The position numbers and the translations under genes were made by a program. A stretch of DNA of 35,108 nt from Geodermatophilaceae bacterium. Lineage in GTDB: Bacteria > Actinomycetota > Actinomycetes > Mycobacteriales > Geodermatophilaceae. The notes beneath the pieces are model-generated. The model did not search any database and was not told the origin of the DNA. It worked only from the letters and a program-made list of their open reading frames with translations. Shown one piece after another: positions 16,398 to 17,145 of the stretch. The stretch is from positions 1 to 35,108 of the forward strand of contig JACCZY010000097.1 in the NCBI GenBank assembly GCA_013695685.1. The letters run 5' to 3'. Positions within the stretch are counted from its first letter, which is position 1. Each line of letters opens with the position of its first letter.

Positions 16398-16412
16398 CGA
16401 ATCGGACCCCTT
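16395..16412 (-). repeat. ftsZ copy of the ftsZ/sepF leader element
   Basis: The minus strand reads AAGGGGTCCGATTCGATG, ending in the ftsZ ATG. It differs from the sepF leader only by one inserted T. Such identity beyond the ribosome-binding site suggests shared translational control or a recent duplication of the leader. Confidence 0.6.
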
Positions 16413-16420
16413 CTGCAGTG

Positions 16421-16437
16421 ACCCTCAAGTTGAGGGT
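16421..16437. promoter_or_regulatory. Perfect 17-bp palindrome upstream of ftsZ, candidate operator
   Basis: ACCCTCAA-G-TTGAGGGT is an 8-bp perfect inverted repeat around one base, 24 bp before the ftsZ ATG. On the minus strand it begins 8 bp after a consensus TTGACA hexamer (16451-16446), so it would cover the spacer and -10 region of a promoter using that hexamer. The half-site CCTCAA/TTGAGG resembles MerR/SoxR-type operators, but the centre is much shorter than in those. No regulator can be named from sequence. Confidence 0.55.
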
Positions 16438-16445
16438 TAGAGTTA

Positions 16446-16451
16446 TGTCAA
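16446..16451 (-). promoter_or_regulatory. Candidate -35 box of an ftsZ promoter (TTGACA)
   Basis: A consensus TTGACA on the minus strand in the 151-bp gap upstream of ftsZ. No good TAnnnT lies at 16-18 bp downstream; that position falls in the second arm of the palindrome. Promoters directly upstream of ftsZ are usual in actinobacteria. The rest of the gap (16452-16548) shows nothing clear beyond GC-rich inverted repeats. Confidence 0.45.
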
Positions 16452-16548
16452 CCTGCGAAAACGGTAGGTAGCCCCGGCGGGGGAGTCAAAGACGTTCCCC
16501 GGCGTGTCGCCCGCGGATTCTGCGGCGGCCGTGCACGAGGGTCGGAGC

Positions 16549-17124
16549 TCAGCCCTTGGGCAGGCGGCCCATCAGGTAGAACTCGTCGTTGGGCGGTACG
16601 GCGGCGAGGTGCACGAGCCGGTTGGACATCGCGAAGAAGGAGACGATCGAGCCGATGTCCCAGATGTCGTCCTCGGTGAAGCCGTGCTCCCGCAGCGGAT
16701 CCAGATGTTCGGGCACGACACTGGCCGGGTCCCGGGCGAGCCGCAGGGCGAACTCGAGCATCGCCTTTTGGGCGTCGGTGATCTCGGCCTTGCGCCAATC
16801 GGTCGCCACCTGGTCGGCGATCCGCGGGTTCCGGGCCCGAATCCGGGCGATCGCGCCGTGGGCCACGACGCAGTACAGGCATCCGTTCGCCGCGCTGGTC
16901 GCCACCACGATCAGCTCCCGGTCGGCCTTGGGCAGCATGGTGCTCTCGGTGTCCATCAGGGCGTCGTGATAGGCGAAGAACGCCCGCCACTCCGCCGGCC
17001 GGTGCGCCAGTGCCAGAAACACGTTCGGCACGAAGCCGGACTTGTCCTCCACCTCGGCCAGCCGGGCGGCGATATCCTCCGGCAGGTCCGCCCGGTCCGG
17101 CACCGGAAACCGGCTGATCACCAT
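16549..17124 (-). CDS. AhpD-like alkylhydroperoxidase (carboxymuconolactone decarboxylase family)
   Basis: A 191-aa all-helical protein of the CMD/AhpD superfamily, closest in form to the 'peroxidase-related enzyme' group. The active-site spacing E70 ... C82-x2-C85-x3-H89 (PKADRELIVVATSAANGCLYCVVAHG) equals the Glu118/Cys130/Cys133/His137 pattern of mycobacterial AhpD, so a thiol peroxidase activity is likely. The physiological electron donor and substrate are unknown. I chose the ATG at 17124 (MVISRFPVPD); the six extra track codons overlap the promoter-like TAGGCT. The gene interrupts the normally adjacent ftsQ-ftsZ pair, starting only 21 bp after ftsQ, so it may be co-transcribed with the dcw cluster as well as from its own promoter. 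Confidence 0.9.
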   Translation of the reverse strand: MVISRFPVPDRADLPEDIAARLAEVEDKSGFVPNVFLALAHRPAEWRAFFAYHDALMDTESTMLPKADRELIVVATSAANGCLYCVVAHGAIARIRARNPRIADQVATDWRKAEITDAQKAMLEFALRLARDPASVVPEHLDPLREHGFTEDDIWDIGSIVSFFAMSNRLVHLAAVPPNDEFYLMGRLPKG

Positions 17125-17131
17125 GGCAGCT

Positions 17132-17137
17132 AGCCTA
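17132..17137 (-). promoter_or_regulatory. Candidate -10 box for a leaderless AhpD-like transcript
   Basis: The minus strand reads TAGGCT, then seven bases, then the ATG at 17124. TAnnnT placed 7 nt before an ATG is the usual geometry of leaderless mRNAs in actinobacteria, where transcription starts on the A of the start codon. No Shine-Dalgarno precedes this ATG, which agrees. The -35 region inside the ftsQ end is poor. Confidence 0.45.
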
Positions 17138-17145
17138 ACCACGGC

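Follow-up and report, generated by a model that had tools for sequence, protein, structure and literature searches.

We identified a perfect palindrome ahead of ftsZ in the window, the whole 35,108-nucleotide stretch of DNA analyzed here, as the core of a predicted operator for FtsR, a known cell-division regulator and MerR-family activator that occurs throughout Actinobacteria, with a probability that we put at about 0.88. This assignment draws on the match in register to the described FtsR site, the conservation of the surrounding block, the FtsR gene of the host genome, and the rank of the site as the best in that genome. FtsR control of ftsZ is already described in relatives; the operator type is known, and the genome is new to it. 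The assignment would settle the identity of the palindrome and add one more actinobacterial genus to those with the described FtsR site. A sharper site model, namely a 31-bp dyad fixed to TTGACATAAC, and a predicted link to mcdR are the useful additions.

A conserved dyad ahead of ftsZ

The palindrome, ACCCTCAA-G-TTGAGGGT, matched in 8/8 pairs, and 8 bp separated it from a TTGACA read from 16451 to 16446 on the minus strand, which is the coding strand of ftsZ (Table 1). The first-pass annotation had reported both elements and described the palindrome as AT-richer than its surroundings; both were real, and the GC content was 53% in the site against 71% across the window. The genome-wide motif search that it had proposed found the exact palindrome only once in the 2.98-Mb genome and, with a sequence model, ranked the ftsZ site as the best match. 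The window contained no other perfect 8+1+8 palindrome. Markov-shuffled windows held a mean of 1.9 such palindromes each, or ~0.008 per 154-bp gap. Thus, the palindrome taken alone is not above chance, and its significance comes from its position and conservation. An AhpD/CMD-family peroxidase-related gene (16549-17142, minus strand; TIGR01926, 206 bits) was located between ftsQ and ftsZ, and its apparent 3′ end was also observed ahead of ftsZ in two relatives of the genus (L085 and L088).

Table 1. Features of the ftsZ upstream region, in window coordinates
Feature	Position	Strand	Basis
ftsZ CDS, 375 aa	15270..16397	-	TIGR00065 417 bits against a cut-off of 295; Pfam Tubulin, FtsZ_C
AGAAGGGG, likely ribosome-binding site, 9 nt ahead of ATG	16407..16414	-	deduced from sequence
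31-bp conserved dyad block; last half-site, 16414-16420, degenerate in the window's genus	16414..16444	-	column conservation, dyad scan
FtsR-type 25-bp site AACTCTAACCCTCAACTTGAGGGTC	16420..16444	-	in register with C. glutamicum AACCCTAAAGTAAAGGTTGAGGGTA (PMC6683498)
Perfect 17-bp palindrome, inner part of the dyad	16421..16437	.	sequence, shuffling
GAGGGT, candidate -10, 19-bp spacer	16421..16426	-	A2 98%, T6 89% in representatives; deduced
TTGACA, -35 of the operator-overlapping promoter	16446..16451	-	near-invariant and at fixed distance to the operator in 45 representatives, from rows chosen on TTGACATAAC with ≤1 mismatch
TACCGT, candidate -10 of the upstream promoter, 17-bp spacer	16461..16466	-	conserved in relatives
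TTGACT, candidate -35 of the upstream promoter	16484..16489	-	deduced from sequence
CGACACG, WhiA/WhiB-type box	16503..16509	-	CGACAC conserved upstream in relatives

Next, we collected 185 actinobacterial ftsZ upstream regions from genome contigs and whole-genome relatives, and counted the block as present when its TTGACATAAC start matched with ≤1 mismatch. By this measure, TTGACATAAC and the dyad block occurred in 145/185 regions. Column conservation was then analyzed in 45 divergent representatives of the 145 block-bearing regions. Block positions 1 (the first T of TTGACA) to 38 were conserved, and the information fell to background on either side; the conservation of positions 1-10 is partly due to row selection, whereas that of positions 11-38 is not. 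The strongest dyad centre was at block position 23, corresponding to 16429 of the window and to the centre of the palindrome, and weaker centres were observed at positions 20 and 26. The consensus of positions 8-38 was AACTnTAAnCCTCTACTTGAGGnTGAGGGTT, which reads as four half-sites, or as two overlapping 25-bp sites with a 6-bp offset. Loss of the fourth half-site (positions 32-38) was seen in the window and in the relatives nearest to it (L084-L088), and their inner 17 bp were perfect or one mismatch off. Perfect 17-bp symmetry was found in only 2/45 representatives. The expected conservation of the palindrome across relatives was therefore seen in part: the perfect symmetry was not kept, but the dyad consensus was, along with TTGACA.

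The same data weighed on two readings without a DNA-binding regulator. A functionless chance palindrome would agree with the ~1.9 palindromes of this kind expected per window of this composition, but it does not explain a block present across families in most ftsZ upstream regions, or the genome-best motif score. We consider it exceedingly improbable, and it was rejected on conservation, not on rarity. We also considered that the ftsZ leader might act as RNA, through a hairpin or a terminator, as the palindrome is able to form a hairpin. However, the fold z-score was only -1.4, and a terminator scan revealed none. Furthermore, the arms showed no covariation in the 45 representatives, with 9.04/15 positions paired within rows and 8.84 across rows. 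Fold score, terminator scan, and pair counts all stood against the hairpin, which was rejected as highly improbable. The lack of covariation argues for a DNA operator rather than an RNA hairpin, and half-sites conserved independently are what a DNA-binding dimer predicts.

FtsR as the predicted regulator

Corynebacterium glutamicum FtsR (Cg1631), isolated on the promoter of ftsZ, activates this gene, and its bound site is the 25-bp inverted repeat AACCCTAAAGTAAAGGTTGAGGGTA (PMC6683498). In Mycobacterium tuberculosis, where FtsR is Rv1828, promoter P1 has a similar site, placed between its -35 and -10 (PMC6683498). As compared with AACCCTAAAGTAAAGGTTGAGGGTA, the window site AACTCTAACCCTCAACTTGAGGGTC was identical at 16/25 positions, with 7/8 in the half-site AACCCTAA and 8/8 in TTGAGGGT. 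In the described FtsR register, the outer left half AACTCTAA pairs with the right half TTGAGGGT, and this arrangement is present in the window. The first-pass annotation had noted half-sites resembling those of MerR/SoxR-type operators, and the match in register to the motif of a MerR-family protein bears this out. It had also judged the spacing wrong for MerR, because the inner arm had been paired with the right arm; the outer left arm with the right arm gives the 25-bp FtsR repeat, so a regulator of another family is not needed. Its proposal of an operator in the ftsZ promoter, able to act apart from the upstream operon, is probably correct.

The host genome (G000) encodes FtsR at C272:23802-24530, and the product scored 282 bits with NCBIfam NF050798 (cut-off 150) and matched the Rv1828 structure 5ydc with an E value of 1e-23. 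The gene was found in its published neighbourhood of gcvH, odhI/garA, ftsR, a nuclease (assigned by size and position only), and mcdR. FtsR was above the cut-off in 117/119 relatives, compared with 1/14 control genomes; the positive control was presumably C. glutamicum, the only actinobacterium among the nine controls listed. The ftsZ site was the top match in the genome of a sequence model of the site (E 5e-5), a rank that is partly by construction, as the 36 rows of the model include the window's own site. When the genome was searched with the 25-bp pattern, only the 1-mismatch ftsZ match stood out, and the number of matches with 3 mismatches was no higher than that of the reversed control.

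McdR (Rv1830), the sister MerR regulator encoded two genes from FtsR, was weighed as another possible binder, since a similar palindrome precedes mcdR itself. Its published motif, AATnACAnnnnTGTnATT, was absent from the dyad block by reading, whereas the described FtsR motif matched in register. McdR was thus rejected as the binder, and we regard it as very unlikely.

The FtsR operator predicted here shares with those of C. glutamicum and M. tuberculosis the gene, the 25-bp register, the half-sites, and the FtsR neighbourhood (PMC6683498). In contrast to the C. glutamicum operator, the window site, like those of most of the order, is part of a 31-bp dyad fixed to TTGACATAAC. Furthermore, the window's genus differs from the described operator in the loss of the fourth half-site and in its near-perfect inner palindrome. 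The C. glutamicum site is centred at -73 from the mapped start (PMC6683498), which is not a spacer position and speaks against the spacer layout predicted for the window.

Inferred promoter geometry and a candidate upstream promoter

With TTGACA taken as the -35, a hexamer with both A2 and T6 occurred only at a spacer of 19 bp (89% of representatives) or 25 bp (84%), and no fitting -10 was found at 16-18 or 20 bp. Because the 25-bp alternative was lost in the window's genus, GAGGGT with the 19-bp spacer is the better candidate. GAGGGT is without the first T of TANNNT, and its conserved A and T could reflect the dyad alone. The earlier placement of the palindrome at the -10 region therefore holds for GAGGGT at 19 bp, but not for the 16-18 bp range.

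In classical MerR/SoxR operators, the dyad lies in promoters with spacers of 19-20 bp. The ftsZ region of the window resembles these in its predicted MerR-family regulator, a dyad between the -35 and the candidate -10, a 19-bp candidate spacer, and CCTCAA/TTGAGG half-sites. However, its half-sites, which together span 25 bp, are more widely spaced and can occur doubled, and its candidate -10 is weak. For this organism, we infer that FtsR binds the site, how the promoter is laid out, and a distortion mechanism. An FtsR dimer would bind the 25-bp inverted repeat, which relatives carry doubled, as a 31-bp dyad with four half-sites. The site would lie over the -35 TTGACA and the -10-like GAGGGT, whose 19-bp spacer would, like those of classical MerR promoters, be too long for good unaided use. 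Bound FtsR would be expected to bring both hexamers into register, thereby increasing ftsZ transcription, and ftsZ would also be transcribed from a second promoter farther upstream, which carries a GACAC box (WhiA/WhiB). We give such a MerR-type mechanism with a 19-bp spacer about even odds at ftsZ.

The candidate upstream promoter was then analyzed in relatives. TAnnnT was located 20-26 bp ahead of TTGACATAAC in 25/25 listed relatives, and TA[ACG]C[GTC]T was present in 117/140 relatives compared with 9.4 expected when kinship is ignored. CGACAC occurred upstream in 93/143 relatives (5.4 expected). The WhiA/WhiB2 promoter motif is cGACACGc (PMC9040748), and a WhiA gene is encoded in the host genome. 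As in WhiA/WhiB2 GACAC promoters (PMC9040748), a GACACG box was found upstream of both ftsZ and mcdR. This box is a distinct element of the same regulatory region, separate from the palindrome.

Alternatively, FtsR could bind the same operator but act on the upstream GACAC promoter, TTGACT-17-TACCGT, an arrangement compatible with the identity of the regulator. Transcription would then start just ahead of TTGACATAAC, and the operator would fall within the first 45 transcribed bases, modulating or blocking. Consistent with this, the distance between the upstream -10 and the operator block is almost constant from family to family. Nevertheless, this distance is shortened to 15 bp in the window's genus, compared with 20-26 bp in the other listed families. 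Moreover, an action on the upstream promoter has no need for TTGACA, which is nonetheless near-invariant and fixed to the operator in rows chosen on TTGACATAAC, and the FtsR of C. glutamicum activates ftsZ (PMC6683498). We therefore consider this alternative rather unlikely.

A predicted second FtsR site ahead of mcdR

The second-best match of the site model in the host genome was located at C272:25141-25165 (L121:4142-4166), ~130-150 bp ahead of mcdR, where the site is followed by GCGACACGCCG and adjoins GACACG. A weight matrix built on the ftsZ sites scored >12 bits upstream of mcdR in 9/30 relatives, compared with 0/180 control stretches, and in 7/26 other genomes, compared with 0/156 controls. 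The strongest scores were those of Nocardioides (39.7) and Arthrobacter (36.8). The dyad upstream of mcdR thus recurs across several actinobacterial families, and most of the genomes listed from the same family, the window's genus aside, lacked it. The mcdR homologue was not among the nine FtsR peaks in C. glutamicum (PMC6683498), and our literature search found no paper joining Rv1828 and Rv1830. The putative link between FtsR and mcdR is new, and we offer it as a prediction. A genuine site ahead of mcdR would link two regulators of division whose genes are neighbours.

We propose that ftsZ and mcdR may form a conserved core regulon of FtsR, in which the supply for the Z-ring would be tied to the McdR-WhiB2 loop. 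In this proposal, which we hold to be evenly balanced between right and wrong, ftsZ would carry two overlapping sites with four half-sites, and the window's genus a reduced form with three.

Two weaker FtsR-like matches were also observed. The third match in the host genome (C100:10344-10369; L292) had an E value of 0.08, lies just past a hydrolase-like frame, and may be due to chance. In one relative (G072), an FtsR-like site at C1:150343-150371 (L295:1544-1572) was located ~700 bp upstream of ftsR, where self-regulation of the cluster is possible.
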